NCBI GenBank assembly: GCA_018825785.1
Contig: JAHKAY010000045.1
Coordinates: 1-34,386, forward strand
Origin: Chloroflexota bacterium
GTDB taxonomy: Bacteria > Chloroflexota > Dehalococcoidia > JACVQG01 > JAHKAY01
Direction: 5' to 3'
Length of the DNA stretch: 34,386 nucleotides
Made by a program: the position numbers and the translations under genes. The notes beneath the pieces are model-generated. The model was not told the origin of the DNA. It was given only the letters and a program-made list of their open reading frames with translations, and searched no databases. This document shows, piece by piece, positions 29,746-34,386 of the stretch (position 1 is its first letter; every line of letters starts with the position of its first letter).

Positions 29746-29822
29746 CGGGGAGTAGCGCAGCCCGGTAGCGCACCTGAATGGGGTTCAGGTGGTCGGCGGT
29801 TCAAATCCGCCCTCCCCGACCA
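29746..29822 (+). tRNA. tRNA-Pro (anticodon GGG)
   Basis: CGGGGAG pairs with CTCCCCG as the acceptor stem, with discriminator A and an encoded CCA end. The anticodon stem CCTGA/TCAGG encloses ATGGGGT, giving anticodon GGG for codon CCC. The D-arm (GCGC-AGCCCGGTA-GCGC) and T-arm (GGCGG-TTCAAAT-CCGCC) are complete. A tyrosine integrase gene begins about 110 nt downstream, so the 3' end is a likely attachment site. Confidence 0.95.
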
Positions 29823-29844
29823 TAGATAGGGAAAACGGAGGGTC

Positions 29845-29906
29845 GACCACCTAAACAGACCCCGAGGCAGATAGGGGACAAGTTCGGTGGTGACCACCTA
29901 AATAGA
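29845..29906 (+). repeat. Direct repeat pair upstream of the integrase
   Basis: GACCACCTAAACAGA at 29845-29859 and GACCACCTAAATAGA at 29892-29906 match at 14 of 15 positions and start 47 bp apart. Next to the second copy GGTGG-TGA-CCACC is an inverted repeat (29886-29898). They lie between the tRNA 3' end and the integrase start, where integrase arm-type or excisionase sites are expected. Confidence 0.6.
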
Positions 29907-29931
29907 TTTGGCCGGCCTCCCCGAAAAGAAT

Positions 29932-30918
29932 ATGGCTGCTGTGGCGACAGACGTTAGTCTGGGTAGGGTAGTGGATGGTTTTGTCCTGACCTTGCGAAGC
30001 GAAGGCAAGTCCCCCAAGACCGTAGAGTTCCACGGAGGCAATCTGCGCCGCCTTGCTTGGTATGCTGGCCAGATGGGGTGGCCCGAGGACATTCGACAGA
30101 TAGACCAGTGGCGAGTAAAGGAATTCCTCGTTTACGTGGCCGAGAGCCGAGACCGTTGGGGGCTTCGGGGCAACGGCGCTGAGAGCTCTCGTCCCCGAGC
30201 AAGCTACAATACGACATGGCACTACTACGTGACCCTGCGGGTCTTCTTCGGCTGGGCGGTCAGAGAAGGGTTCTTGGAGAAGTCCCCTGTGGACGGCGTG
30301 AAGTTAAAGCGGCCTAGCCCGCCAGTGGTAGAGCCATACACGCCAGAGCAAATCCAGGGCCTGCTCAAGGTGTGCGACTGGGACTTCGAGCATAACGCCC
30401 GTTTCCTCGCGTCCAGAAACAGAGCTATCGTCCTGACATTACTTGACACTGGACTCCGGTTGGGAGAGTTGGTGGGCATCCGGCTACAAGACATTGACCG
30501 GGATCGAGGCTTGATAGCGGTGGTGGGCAAGGGCCGGAAGGAGAGAGTGGTGAGAGTAGGGCAGGTGTGTCAGAAAGCGCTCTGGCGCTACCTCATACAG
30601 CGGGGGCAGGCTTCTTCGTCCTCGCTCTGGCTCACCGAAGAGAGACGTCCCCTTGCCGCCAGAGCGGTGCAGGACATGGTAAGGCGCCTACGCAAACGGG
30701 CGGGATTGGGCAACGTCGAGGGCTTGGTCCACAAGTTCCGACATACTTTCGCGCTGCAGTTCTTGAGAGCGGACCGAAACACTTTCAATCTCCAGTACCT
30801 TCTTGGTCATTCCACATTGGAGATGACCAGGCGCTACGTGCAGACCCTGGGCATGCAAGATGCACTGGAAGCCCACGTCAATGCCAGCCCTGTTGACGCC
30901 CTGGGGTTAAAGGGATGA
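29932..30918 (+). CDS. Tyrosine integrase next to tRNA-Pro
   Basis: This is a site-specific integrase of 328 residues. An N-terminal SAM-like domain (FVLTLRSEGKSPKTVEFHGG, later TWHYYVTLRVFFGWAVREGF) precedes the catalytic domain. R176 lies in TGLRLGEL, K200 in GKGRKERV, H267 and R270 in HKFRHTF, H293 in LLGHSTLE and Y302 at the RRY nucleophile position. All active-site residues are therefore present. TTG 29908 would extend it by 8 codons; ATG 29932 is chosen although its ribosome site is weak. It lies close behind the tRNA and overlaps the next gene by 4 nt (ATGA). It looks functional for integrating the island at tRNA-Pro. Confidence 0.9.
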   Translation: MAAVATDVSLGRVVDGFVLTLRSEGKSPKTVEFHGGNLRRLAWYAGQMGWPEDIRQIDQWRVKEFLVYVAESRDRWGLRGNGAESSRPRASYNTTWHYYVTLRVFFGWAVREGFLEKSPVDGVKLKRPSPPVVEPYTPEQIQGLLKVCDWDFEHNARFLASRNRAIVLTLLDTGLRLGELVGIRLQDIDRDRGLIAVVGKGRKERVVRVGQVCQKALWRYLIQRGQASSSSLWLTEERRPLAARAVQDMVRRLRKRAGLGNVEGLVHKFRHTFALQFLRADRNTFNLQYLLGHSTLEMTRRYVQTLGMQDALEAHVNASPVDALGLKG

Positions 30919-31664
30919 AGACAGAGCATTCTTGCCCGGAGTGCCTTGATGGAGATATCGGACTGGAAAGCGTCTGCGCCACTTGCGGAAGGAAGCCCGG
31001 GGACCCTCCTTTCCCCGACCTTGTCCGAGCCAAGCTAGCGTCCAGGGAATGGCAGGCCAAGCTTTCCGACGCGCGGCAGCGGGTGGGTCTCCCAACGGAA
31101 GGGCTGCCGGCAGAGGCTGCGCCCGCATATTTGCTTCTGGCGTACAAGGGGTTCTCCAACTTGTGGATTGGCGCAATCACGGGAAAGACCATAGGCGACA
31201 TGAGCCTCCTCCGGGTCCCAGGATGGCTGATGTTCGTCCGGATGACAGCGGCAAGGTTGGCGACTGAGCTGCGCATTACGGAATGCGATGATATCCTGCC
31301 TCATCTCGTTTCGCCGCAACGTTGGTCCCTGGGGATGATTCACCCATGTCAGGGCGAAACAGCGCAGGAAAAGGAGTTCGACCGCCAGCTATGTATGCTC
31401 CTGGGGCTCCCCCCGAAGCTGCTACATGAGGGCATGCGGGCATCCCTTGGCACGCTCCTAAAGCACGAGGCCAGCTGGGCCGAACTTCAGGAGGTACTTG
31501 GCGTTCTCTTCCCCTCGATGGGAAAGATGAAGCCCAACACCTTCAAGCGTACCATCGACCGGGCCATGAAGAAGAAAGCCAGCAGACAGCCTCACTACCG
31601 CGCCCTCAGGGACTTGTGGACACGAATCGAGGGACTGACTGAGACGGCTGAACCTGATGATTAG
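30915..31664 (+). CDS. Zinc-ribbon protein coupled to the integrase
   Basis: This 249-residue protein has a zinc ribbon at its N-terminus: C7 and C10 (CPEC), then C21 and C24 (CATC). The rest is mostly helical, with a hydrophobic segment (APAYLLLAYKGFSNLWIGAI), a Cys-containing FDRQLCMLLGLP stretch and a basic, Lys-rich ending (KRTIDRAMKKKAS). I do not recognise a family. Its ATG overlaps the integrase stop by 4 nt, so translation is coupled and the two proteins are probably made together. That suggests an integration or excision partner, or a regulator, but this is inference. A strong terminator follows 29 nt after its stop. Confidence 0.75.
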   Translation: MKTEHSCPECLDGDIGLESVCATCGRKPGDPPFPDLVRAKLASREWQAKLSDARQRVGLPTEGLPAEAAPAYLLLAYKGFSNLWIGAITGKTIGDMSLLRVPGWLMFVRMTAARLATELRITECDDILPHLVSPQRWSLGMIHPCQGETAQEKEFDRQLCMLLGLPPKLLHEGMRASLGTLLKHEASWAELQEVLGVLFPSMGKMKPNTFKRTIDRAMKKKASRQPHYRALRDLWTRIEGLTETAEPDD

Positions 31665-31692
31665 CCAATAGTACTCCACCCGCCGGGCAGAA

Positions 31693-31730
31693 ATTGAGCA
31701 GACGACCTCGTCTGCTCAATTCGTTTTTGT
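31693..31730 (+). terminator. Rho-independent terminator after the integrase operon
   Basis: ATTGAGCAGACGA and its perfect complement form a 13-bp hairpin around CC (31693-31720), followed by TCGTTTTTG. It closes the integrase plus zinc-ribbon operon. Confidence 0.85.
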
Positions 31731-31811
31731 AGGACAATCGACCCCCGTTTTGTCCCATTAGGCGAGCCATCCTCGTTTCCTAAGATTCGATGTGTGGGGA
31801 GCGAGGGGCAC

Positions 31812-32060
31812 ATGTCCGTACAAGAGGCAGGCCGCCAAGGAGGGCTTCGCTGCCTACTACGGCATGGGCATGCCTTCATGGCAGACATAGGGAGAAAGGG
31901 CCAGAAGGTCATGCGGTCGAAGCACCCCTCTATGGCCGCCCAATGGGGCCGTATGGGCGGGCGGCCCAGGAAGCCGGACTTGGCTGGGGCGGGGGAATGC
32001 AGAAAGAAGGAGGTCGGCGGGGAGGCCGGCCACCCACCCCCTCCCCAGCCGCCAGAATAG
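31812..32060 (+). CDS. Small KGG-motif-like basic protein
   Basis: An 82-residue protein starts at ATG 31812, behind a GGGGAGCGAGGGG purine tract. It shows spaced Gly-rich basic motifs: EAGRQGGL, then IGRKGQKVM, then WGRMGGRPRKP, near-repeats of about 20 residues with RHGHAFMAD between. Such KGG-type repeats occur in small stress-associated proteins of many bacteria. The C-terminus is Pro-rich. It overlaps the upstream open frame of the next recombinase in another frame; the motif spacing argues that this frame is the coding one. Role unknown, possibly DNA or stress-related. Confidence 0.55.
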   Translation: MSVQEAGRQGGLRCLLRHGHAFMADIGRKGQKVMRSKHPSMAAQWGRMGGRPRKPDLAGAGECRKKEVGGEAGHPPPPQPPE

Positions 32061-32155
32061 GTATCGTGGCACAATGCGACAACGGCCAGTCTCCACAAGG
32101 CGCCAAGGAAGGCCGCGACAGATGCCGCAAGAAGGTTAGAGGCGTCGGGGGTGGA

Positions 32156-32896
32156 GTGAGCGCAAGAGCCTATCTGGAGCCCCACGAGGTGAAGTCTCTG
32201 GAGGATGCGGCCACCAACCTCCGGGACCGCCTGCTGGTCAGGCTGCTGTTCTACCAGGGATGTCGAGTCTCCGAAGCTCTGGGTATCGCGGTAGACGATG
32301 TTAACCTGGCCGGCGGCACAGTCACCATCCAGCATCTGAAGACACGTATGAGGCTCTCGTGTCCTCAGTGCGAAACGAGGCTTGGCATGAGCCACAGCTT
32401 CTGCCCCAAATGCGGGTCAAAGGTGGAGAAGATGGTCGCTGAGGAGTGGGAGCACCGCCGGGTGAGGACCCTGCCCGTAGACGCACAAACCTCGGACATG
32501 CTGGGGGACTACATCCAGCGAGGCGGCCCCGTCATGAAGGGTGAAAGGCAACTCCTCTTCGGCATCGGCCGTGGCCAGGTATGGCGCGTGGTCTCGGAGT
32601 GCGCCCGCCGGGCGGGGCTGGGCGACCTCCTCAACCCCGAGACCGGGAGGAGGAGAGGAGTGAGTCCCCATCGGTTGCGAGATGCCTTCGCCGTACATGC
32701 CATGAAGCTTGACGACTCGGGGGACGGTCTCAGGCTTCTACAAGAACACCTGGGTCACGTCAGCTTCAACACGACTGCCAGGTACAGGAAGGTAGCAGGC
32801 GAGGAGCACAGGGAGTGGTATGACAAGCTGTGGGACAAGCAGGCTCATGAAAACCCCGCGGTCAATAAGAGGAAACGGCCGTGGTCCTGCCCCTGA
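32156..32896 (+). CDS. Tyrosine recombinase with zinc ribbon inserted in the catalytic domain
   Basis: The conserved catalytic domain is recognisable: R37 (FYQGCRVSEAL), K62 in the beta hairpin (HLKTRMR), H172 and R175 (HRLRDAFAV), H201 (HLGHVSFN) and Y210 (TTARYRK). Between the two strands of the beta hairpin lies a CPQC/CPKC zinc ribbon (C69, C72, C83, C86) of about 30 residues. From GTG 32156 it has 246 residues and lacks the N-terminal core-binding domain. A longer open frame reaches back to 31790 but overlaps the KGG gene, and GTG 32066 is another possible start. Either the protein is minimal or its N-terminus was lost. Function in recombination is inferred. Confidence 0.8.
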   Translation: MSARAYLEPHEVKSLEDAATNLRDRLLVRLLFYQGCRVSEALGIAVDDVNLAGGTVTIQHLKTRMRLSCPQCETRLGMSHSFCPKCGSKVEKMVAEEWEHRRVRTLPVDAQTSDMLGDYIQRGGPVMKGERQLLFGIGRGQVWRVVSECARRAGLGDLLNPETGRRRGVSPHRLRDAFAVHAMKLDDSGDGLRLLQEHLGHVSFNTTARYRKVAGEEHREWYDKLWDKQAHENPAVNKRKRPWSCP

Positions 32897-33441
32897 AGCC
32901 GGCCATGGGCGGCTTCCTGCGGGCTGTCGGCTGCGGCAAGTTCATCCGTGAGTTCCTTATGGGCCACAGTCCAGAGGGCTCGCCAGCGATAGACCCTGCC
33001 GTTGGCGCCCCCCAGGCGGAGATCTTCTACCACTACAAGATGGCCCTTATCAAGGCTACCGCCCTGGACAGGACCACCAGGAGAGAAGAGCAGCTGGCGC
33101 GCCGCGAGAACCGCGCTATAAGCCCAGACAATATCGAGAGGCTGACGGAAAGATACGTGGCCCGGTCTCCCTACAAGGCGAGCGGTGGCCGGTATCATAG
33201 CTTTGTCGTCTACTTCTCCACCCTGCGGAGGCTGGGCTGGGTGGAGCCCACCGGCGAGGAGGAGCCCTCCCAGCCCCGGGACTACCACCCCAACTTTGAG
33301 CCCCGGACCTACTACCGCCTCACCGCCGAGGGGATGAGGGCGATGGTCCCGATAGTCTTCGACCCCATCCTCCTGCTCTACCCTGACTACACCAGAGAGA
33401 AGCGCCACGGCCCCAGGCGGCCCTACTTCCGCCGGCGCTAG
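32881..33441 (+). CDS. Hypothetical protein, 186 aa
   Basis: GTG 32881 follows AGAGGAAAC and overlaps the recombinase end by 16 nt, so the two are coupled. The middle part (NIERLTERYVARSPYKASGG, YHSFVVYFSTLRRLGWVEPT, then YYRLTAEG) looks like a winged-helix or DNA-associated domain, with a basic C-terminal tail (REKRHGPRRPYFRRR). No family is recognised. Codon use is as GC-biased as in the core genes. Its role beside a recombinase may be regulatory, but I cannot support more than that. Confidence 0.65.
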   Translation: MVLPLKPAMGGFLRAVGCGKFIREFLMGHSPEGSPAIDPAVGAPQAEIFYHYKMALIKATALDRTTRREEQLARRENRAISPDNIERLTERYVARSPYKASGGRYHSFVVYFSTLRRLGWVEPTGEEEPSQPRDYHPNFEPRTYYRLTAEGMRAMVPIVFDPILLLYPDYTREKRHGPRRPYFRRR

Positions 33442-33513
33442 GCCCTGCCCGGTCGCCTCAGCTCGGTTCCAAACTGCTTTCGCTGGGGCCACCTACGTGC
33501 TAAGATAGAGCCG

Positions 33514-33975
33514 ATGCGCGGGCAGTTTGACAGTATTGTGGCCAAGATGCCTAAGCTACTCAGTCAGCTCCTAGACACAACTCCGCTGAGCAGAGACCGT
33601 CTACAGAGAATCCCGGAGCGCGGAGTCTATGTGCTATACGAGGACGATACCCCAATCTATGTTGGGCGATCCAACCGACTTAGACAGCGCCTTCTTGAAC
33701 ATAGCAGACCAAGCTCACTCCACAATTCCGCTCCTTTCGCTTTCAACCTGGCAAAGGAGGAAGCCGGCAAACGAGGAATTGACCTCCAAGGTAAACAAAG
33801 AAGTCAGATGGCCAATGATCCTCGCTTCGTCGAGTTGTTCAAGGAGGCAAAGCAGCGCGTTGCCGCAATGAAAGTCCGCAGCATCGAGATTACTCACCCA
33901 ATTGAACAGACCCTGTTTGAGGTGTATGCAGCCCTTGCACTGCAAACGCCCTACAACGACTTCGACACCCACTAA
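33514..33975 (+). CDS. GIY-YIG nuclease-domain protein
   Basis: This 153-residue protein has a GIY-YIG nuclease core: RGVYVLYEDDTPIYVGRSN, that is GVY (37-39) and YVG (49-51), the basic helix RLRQRLLEH, and the Glu (E136, LFEVYAALAL) and Asn (YNDF) in the positions usual for the metal ligand and the last motif. The N-terminal 30 residues are hydrophobic and helical without a known domain. The middle (about 60-120) is an insertion of unknown role. It resembles small stand-alone GIY-YIG proteins found in mobile regions rather than UvrC. Start codon is ATG 33514 with a weak ribosome site; ATG 33547 is possible. More AT-rich than its neighbours. Confidence 0.8.
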   Translation: MRGQFDSIVAKMPKLLSQLLDTTPLSRDRLQRIPERGVYVLYEDDTPIYVGRSNRLRQRLLEHSRPSSLHNSAPFAFNLAKEEAGKRGIDLQGKQRSQMANDPRFVELFKEAKQRVAAMKVRSIEITHPIEQTLFEVYAALALQTPYNDFDTH

Positions 33976-34386
33976 CAGCGAGTTTCAACGCCGCCTCTTC
34001 GAGCAAGGAACAACTCCTCCCTAGGCTTTGATGGCTCTTCCACCCAGCTCCCGGGGCCGCTCCTTGCCGTGACCATGCCTGAATTCTCTGGGGCTTTTTC
34101 CTGGGCTCTATGCTGAAGAAGTGAAATAGCTAATTCCCTTTCTTAAACTTTCCTTCCTTTTGTTCCACAATGAAGCTGTAGCTTTGACAGTTACACCTTA
34201 ACAACTGAATAGGGCAAGGGGATAGGGCGAGGGGATATGCCCCTGAACCCTATCAGGGGAGATGGCACTCCCCGCCCATAGGCCAGCAAGCCCTTAAAGC
34301 AAGGGCTGAACGAATGACCCCGCCGATGTATGGCCGATAGCTGACCCCCTGGGGCATATAGCAGTTGAACGGGGGCCGTAGCAAGC
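33976..34386. other. Non-coding end region with hairpins
   Basis: This 410-nt stretch has no gene that I can support. It contains hairpins CCCCTGA-6-TCAGGGG (34241-34260) and AGCCCTT-AAAGC-AAGGGCT (34289-34307), near GGGGATAGGGCGAGGGGATA. The first half is AT-richer with pyrimidine runs, the end GC-rich. It may be part of a structured RNA or the start of the next element, cut by the window edge. Confidence 0.4.

Follow-up and report, generated by a model that had tools for sequence, protein, structure and literature searches.

A small tyrosine recombinase with a predicted zinc ribbon in its lysine hairpin and a closely linked partner gene on mobile elements of Dehalococcoidia

We analysed a stretch of 34,386 nucleotides from a Dehalococcoidia genome (Chloroflexota bacterium, GenBank assembly GCA_018825785.1, contig JAHKAY010000045.1), hereafter called the window, and focused on a small tyrosine recombinase encoded near its right end, which we name Zn-TR, together with the partner gene whose start overlaps its stop (Table 1). 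The Pfam family Phage_integrase (PF00589) matches Zn-TR at 2.7e-18, with the match split into two stretches between which zinc-ribbon families match, all below the Pfam cut-offs. The active-site residues are R37, K62, H172-x-x-R175, H201 and Y210; judged by this full set of R, K, H-x-x-R, H and Y and by its PF00589/Xer-type fold, Zn-TR is a member of the tyrosine recombinase superfamily. No residues precede the catalytic domain, and the core-binding domain is missing in all copies. The start codon is likely the GTG at 32156, because homologs start 3-4 residues ahead of a conserved 'YLE'. In the window the frame remains open further upstream, as far as 31790, but in most homologs this upstream part is short. 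A preliminary description of this DNA had recognised a tyrosine recombinase that keeps Arg, His-x-x-Arg, His and Tyr and has no clear N-terminal DNA-binding domain, and our alignments agree with it, as they do on the open reading frame (ORF), its length, the cysteine numbering and the overlap with the next gene.

Alignment with ordinary recombinases, two of them from the window, places the insert directly after K62, between 'GTVTIQHLK62' and 'HRRVRTLPV', inside the hairpin that carries the catalytic lysine. In the AlphaFold2 model, built from 11 sequences with a mean predicted local distance difference test (pLDDT) score of 78 and values of 82-87 for residues 71-90, the ribbon is flanked by strands 55-60 and 102-107. 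The C-x2-C-x10-C-x2-C spacing is invariant, and the two CxxC knuckles on short strands are those of a predicted C4 zinc ribbon. Residues 63-90 carry a net charge of +4 in the window protein and of +3 to +7 across the family, positive in every member. The preliminary description had proposed that a CPxC/CPxC ribbon interrupts the Lys-bearing segment, expecting the insertion to be conserved in homologs and the Cys pairs to be modelled as a ribbon between the hairpin strands; on both counts it was borne out, with the four cysteines unchanged in all 23 aligned members and the pairs located in the ribbon rather than outside it. A small number of searches of the open-licence literature found no paper linking zinc to a hairpin of this type.

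C69, C72, C83 and C86 are accompanied in this 23-sequence alignment by equally invariant R37, K62, H172, R175, H201 and Y210, and the joint retention of ribbon and active site is therefore not due to chance. Across 49 unique Zn-TR sequences, one of them broken early, the cysteines and catalytic residues are conserved in about 98%. The 50 dereplicated copies all group in a single clade, which has full support in the Shimodaira-Hasegawa-like approximate likelihood ratio test (SH-aLRT), also when the ribbon columns are removed, and among the recombinase ORFs around the Zn-TR loci the intact small ones bear the ribbon at the same place while the full-length ones bear none. The ratio of non-synonymous to synonymous substitution rates (dN/dS) is 0.05-0.11 among Dehalogenimonas-like copies, excluding pairs with the copy at locus L049, which are one codon out of register, and indicates purifying selection.

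Zn-TR is carried on integrative elements and proviruses of Dehalococcoidia. It is present in 44 of 294 genomes of this class, a count that leaves out five genomes whose sole matches are weak ones to ordinary recombinases, and the genome of the window has four more copies, including one fragment. A 400-genome sample of Chloroflexota yielded no strong matches outside Dehalococcoidia; phage and plasmid records contained no close relatives, only ordinary recombinases whose identity did not exceed about 30%. Six IMG/VR contigs carry Zn-TR. The family is a conserved, apparently undescribed side-branch of the tyrosine recombinases. Separately, 6.5 kb across a provirus with two Zn-TR genes is identical between two genomes (L045:3183-9689 in G210 and L051:1-6507 in G083), which suggests recent exchange or very close strains.

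The best NCBIfam match of Zn-TR is XerA, to which the model aligns in Foldseek at 1.1e-9, and its best matches among solved structures are XerA, other Xer enzymes (XerH), the integron integrase, Tn1549 Int and Cre. A viral structure library returned ordinary integrases. PADLOC matched neither Zn-TR nor the partner and gave no link to anti-phage defence.

The preliminary description had also suggested that the ribbon may stand in for the missing domain or contact another protein, possibly the overlapping neighbour, and the association of the two genes is real. Both genes are readable at 24 loci; at 23 of these, no more than 60 bp separate the partner start from the Zn-TR stop, and at 14 the genes overlap. 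It occurs in 38 of the 294 Dehalococcoidia genomes, 34 of which also have Zn-TR (hypergeometric p = 4e-31, relatedness ignored), and in IMG/VR both genes are confined to the same six contigs. The 17 aligned members are 40-72% identical to the window protein. The AlphaFold2 model of the partner contains helices at 82-95 and 105-117, followed by a two-stranded wing with strands at 121-127 and 143-147; the best structural and Pfam matches are to PadR/MarR regulators. Since the model, built from five sequences, is of low confidence (pLDDT 73) and these matches are weak, none being significant, a winged helix is likely but unproven. At one locus (L047:4005-4283, G210) the partner gene, compared with the G083 copy (L050), is split by a 275-bp insertion, past which the element gives way to chromosomal genes.

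Two gene orders are usual in other elements. In one, a serine integrase and a CxxC protein are divergent from a run of Zn-TR, the partner, a conserved ~180-aa protein and a DnaN-like clamp; in the other, a tyrosine integrase is followed, sometimes after an Xis-like helix-turn-helix (HTH) gene, by Zn-TR and the partner. In some proviruses, which we take to be of the Dehalogenimonas/Dehalococcoides type, Zn-TR shares an operon with small genes, among them subtilase and holin-like ones, and the partner follows a few genes further on. A full-length tyrosine integrase or a large serine integrase is found near most copies, and in the 76.5-kb provirus behind L066 the integrase is a serine enzyme ~19 kb from Zn-TR, which is the sole tyrosine recombinase there. 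Integrase type switches 8 times on the Zn-TR tree (29 scored members), and the module is therefore not tied to one integrase; because the integrase is exchanged while Zn-TR and the partner stay, Zn-TR is best seen as auxiliary.

Several other genes recur on these elements. A protein of ~300 aa, HTH-like at its N-terminus and with a CxxC motif at its C-terminus, nearly always accompanies a large serine integrase (L046:1746-2672, L063:1690-2595 and others) and belongs to no curated family. A divergent homolog of the DNA polymerase III beta clamp (PF02767, 7e-8) is often encoded (L065:4727-5938, L066:16952-18211, L046:5274-6533). Between Zn-TR and the partner, proviruses can carry a protein that joins DUF192, an ArdC N-terminal domain and an M78-type domain (L066:10994-12538, L055:3991-5535) and is likely anti-restriction. 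A BoxA-like motif (ACCTTAACAACTGAATA) lies 3' of the Zn-TR/partner module in most elements (L046 4539, L063 4454, and the window); an almost identical sequence lies ahead of a host 16S rRNA gene (L093, minus strand, 4616), suggesting that the elements use rRNA-type antitermination. An Rfam search of the non-coding region 3' of the partner found only tRNAs, and the conserved core of that region is BoxA-like.

In the window, the module belongs to an element at a tRNA-Pro gene (Table 1). An exact 43-bp copy of its left attachment site (attL), at G000:C37:11667-11709 where there is no tRNA, is read as attR. The integrase next to the tRNA is the element's own, since it adjoins this attachment (att) site. 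The last 96 bases of the window contig (C45) equal the first 96 of C37, but they match the ends of C35 and C11 too, so that the join of C45 to C37 rests on the att copy. If the join is direct, the element spans 29777-34386 plus L125:97-11709 (G000:C37), about 16.2 kb, and it probably carries the cluster for a molybdopterin formate dehydrogenase (FdhA, FdhB, FdhE, FdhD) which, with MoaA, lies between the recombination module and attR. The same genome contains a second element at a different tRNA (G000:C35, L072, 10212-14851), which has its own full-length integrase, an Xis-like HTH protein, the partner and a Zn-TR that is 84% identical, with a candidate attR at C1:9012-9057.

Table 1 Features of the window in and around the Zn-TR module
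Feature	Position	Strand	Basis
tRNA-Pro (GGG), integration target	29746..29822	+	ARAGORN, Rfam
attL, 43 bp of the tRNA 3' half	29777..29819	+	exact repeat at G000:C37:11667-11709
Full-length tyrosine integrase, 336 aa, SAM-like N-terminal domain, without ribbon	29908..30918	+	PF00589 2.9e-29, sub-cutoff SAM domain
249-aa protein, overlaps integrase stop, two CxxC at N-terminus, no known family	30915..31664	+	
Perfect 14-bp palindrome then CGTTTTTG, intrinsic-terminator-like, 3' of the integrase/249-aa pair	31692..31721	+	
Zn-TR, small tyrosine recombinase, 246 aa, catalytic domain only	32156..32896	+	PF00589, alignments, AlphaFold2 model
Lys-hairpin insert, ~residues 63-101, holding C4 ribbon C69/C72/C83/C86 (32360-32413)	32342..32458	+	alignments, AlphaFold2 model
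Partner, 186 aa, 16-bp overlap of its start with the Zn-TR stop, C-terminal half predicted to be a winged helix	32881..33441	+	synteny, AlphaFold2
GIY-YIG domain protein, 153 aa	33514..33975	+	PF01541 0.00096, just below cut-off
BoxA-like motif ACCTTAACAACTGAATAG, non-coding leader 3' of the Zn-TR/partner module	34195..34212	+	

We also considered candidate sites and rearrangements. The 30-bp palindrome at 31692-31721 was set aside as a recombination site: it is not conserved elsewhere, and since a T run follows it, a terminator is more likely. A 1.4-kb block directly after Zn-TR in L043, L044, L049 and L054, considered as a captured cassette, was likewise rejected, as it consists of homologous structural genes without flanking repeats.

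Compared with known systems, Zn-TR is closest to the Xer-type enzymes (XerA, XerC/D, XerH), with which it shares the catalytic fold, the RKHRHY residues and the best structural and profile matches; it differs from them in having no core-binding domain, in its ribbon-like insert in the Lys hairpin and in its location on mobile elements with a partner gene. A further insertion-bearing enzyme is Tn1549 Int, in which the insertion is placed before the lysine, whereas in Zn-TR it comes after. Like Zn-TR, the Tn916/Tn1549 integrases have an extra element in the same sheet of the catalytic domain, and the beta-hairpin insertion of Tn1549 Int touches the DNA backbone and is needed for cleavage (PMC5871717). 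As described there, however, that insertion consists of two strands without cysteines and the integrase has arm- and core-binding domains, whereas Zn-TR has a C4 ribbon and neither domain. The ALOG domain of DIRS1-type recombinases resembles Zn-TR as a zinc ribbon inserted in a tyrosine recombinase, but it lies in the N-terminal domain, which Zn-TR does not have, of enzymes of eukaryotic retroelements (PMC3537659). The simple (Xer-like) tyrosine recombinases of Smyshlyaev et al. 2021 usually consist of a core-binding and a catalytic domain, as that survey defines them (PMC8138268); Zn-TR, with the former missing, falls outside this definition. The word zinc appears neither in this survey (PMC8138268) nor in a review of the archaeal enzymes (PMC8371274). 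Zn-TR is thus inside the superfamily and outside both the simple group and each insertion-bearing group considered.

With moderate confidence, we read Zn-TR and its partner as a two-gene module for site-specific recombination, derived from Xer, of which Zn-TR forms the catalytic half; integrative elements and proviruses of Dehalococcoidia would carry this module in addition to a distinct integrase responsible for their insertion. This reading rests on the invariant active site and cysteines, the purifying selection, the fold match to XerA, XerH and Cre, the linkage to the partner and the presence of a separate integrase. Most likely, Zn-TR is a recombinase of Xer descent with an auxiliary function, and depends on the partner to recognise DNA. 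The ribbon would fold on zinc and, strongly positively charged and projecting from the hairpin, may grip the DNA backbone beside the scissile phosphate, as the Tn1549 Int insertion does; the winged-helix partner would provide the sequence recognition that is normally the role of the core-binding domain. Together the two proteins would recombine a site on the element's own circular form, the most likely job being multimer resolution or conversion of the excised form. Among candidate jobs we rank circular-form resolution above help in excision, and this above regulation and then inversion. Several observations weigh against this picture. The partner fold is predicted at the low confidence given above and has no significant PDB match, and about a dozen Zn-TR loci, some at contig ends, have no detected partner. 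No dyad or motif common to the surroundings of Zn-TR across elements was found by a dyad and shared-word search of dereplicated loci, the same word search recovering the BoxA-like word in the downstream regions, and no rearrangement was traced to Zn-TR. Finally, genes for replication, which other elements have, appear to be absent from the element of the window, and this weakens the case for a role tied to replication.

Of the alternative explanations, one that we consider unlikely, though worth serious attention, is that Zn-TR and the partner are accessory factors of integration or excision that work with the main integrase. Zn-TR adjoins the integrase, often with an Xis-like HTH gene too, and is retained in the small cargo-bearing element; moreover, the GInt ginABCD system, likewise several recombinase genes and a small DNA-binding-like protein on a mobile island, needs three integrases plus a small helical protein (PMC5385486). 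There, however, the three integrases and a helix-loop-helix (HLH) protein form one operon, with no ribbon reported in the text consulted (PMC5385486), an arrangement that the Zn-TR gene orders do not fit. In addition, Zn-TR occurs with serine and tyrosine integrases alike, switching between them repeatedly on the tree, it can lie as far from the integrase as in the 76.5-kb provirus, and some tyrosine-integrase elements have their own Xis-like gene. That Zn-TR is itself the element's integrase with an odd insertion is scarcely credible: it is a tyrosine recombinase on a mobile element, and at a few loci the sequence read contains no further integrase, yet a separate full-length integrase stands directly at the tRNA att site in the window and is also found at most other loci and in the large provirus, which rules this explanation out in the window and at most loci.

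It is improbable that Zn-TR is a DNA-binding regulator on a recombinase fold with the partner as co-regulator. MrpR, YopR and SroF of SPbeta/phi3T, which turn up in the fold search, place a recombinase fold in the control region of temperate phages and are regulators rather than enzymes, Zn-TR is often near the control region of the integrase, and the lack of a detected DNA site or rearrangement agrees with such a role. However, these are larger proteins with a weaker structural match, and Zn-TR keeps a full active site whose residues, including the Tyr, are invariant family-wide, which a pure regulator would not need. Still more improbable is a role in switching element genes, as a DNA invertase or as a shuffler of cassettes. 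FimB/FimE-type invertases are of the same small size (~200 aa), consist of the catalytic domain only, with neither core-binding domain nor ribbon, and act on inverted repeats beside their gene, and the setting of Zn-TR in subtilase/holin-like small-gene operons of several proviruses could suit such a switch. A weak match to NCBIfam tyrosine-type DNA invertases (8e-10) also speaks for this reading, but it is far below the cut-off for the curated models, at 38.5 bits against 222. On the other side, the dyad search found no conserved inverted repeats near Zn-TR, although such sites can be imperfect, the sole indel at its 3' end is the ordinary gene block mentioned above, and no inverted versions occur among the related copies compared.

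A tyrosine recombinase normally clamps DNA with two domains, one of them N-terminal and core-binding, the other catalytic, and the Zn-TR clade drops the first. We tentatively propose, as a possibility well short of probable, that the module is a split recombinase in which the core-binding domain, present in nearly all tyrosine recombinases, has been lost, a zinc ribbon growing from the Lys hairpin holds the DNA, and a winged-helix protein encoded by the overlapping gene gives a specificity that could be changed by swapping the partner. If this is true, a ribbon clade without the core-binding domain but with a linked partner would represent another, separable way to build site specificity. The Zn-TR clade is also a clear sequence signature by which mobile elements can be recognised in Dehalococcoidia. 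Some members of this class respire organohalides, and its elements of this kind can carry respiratory cargo, such as a formate dehydrogenase cluster.
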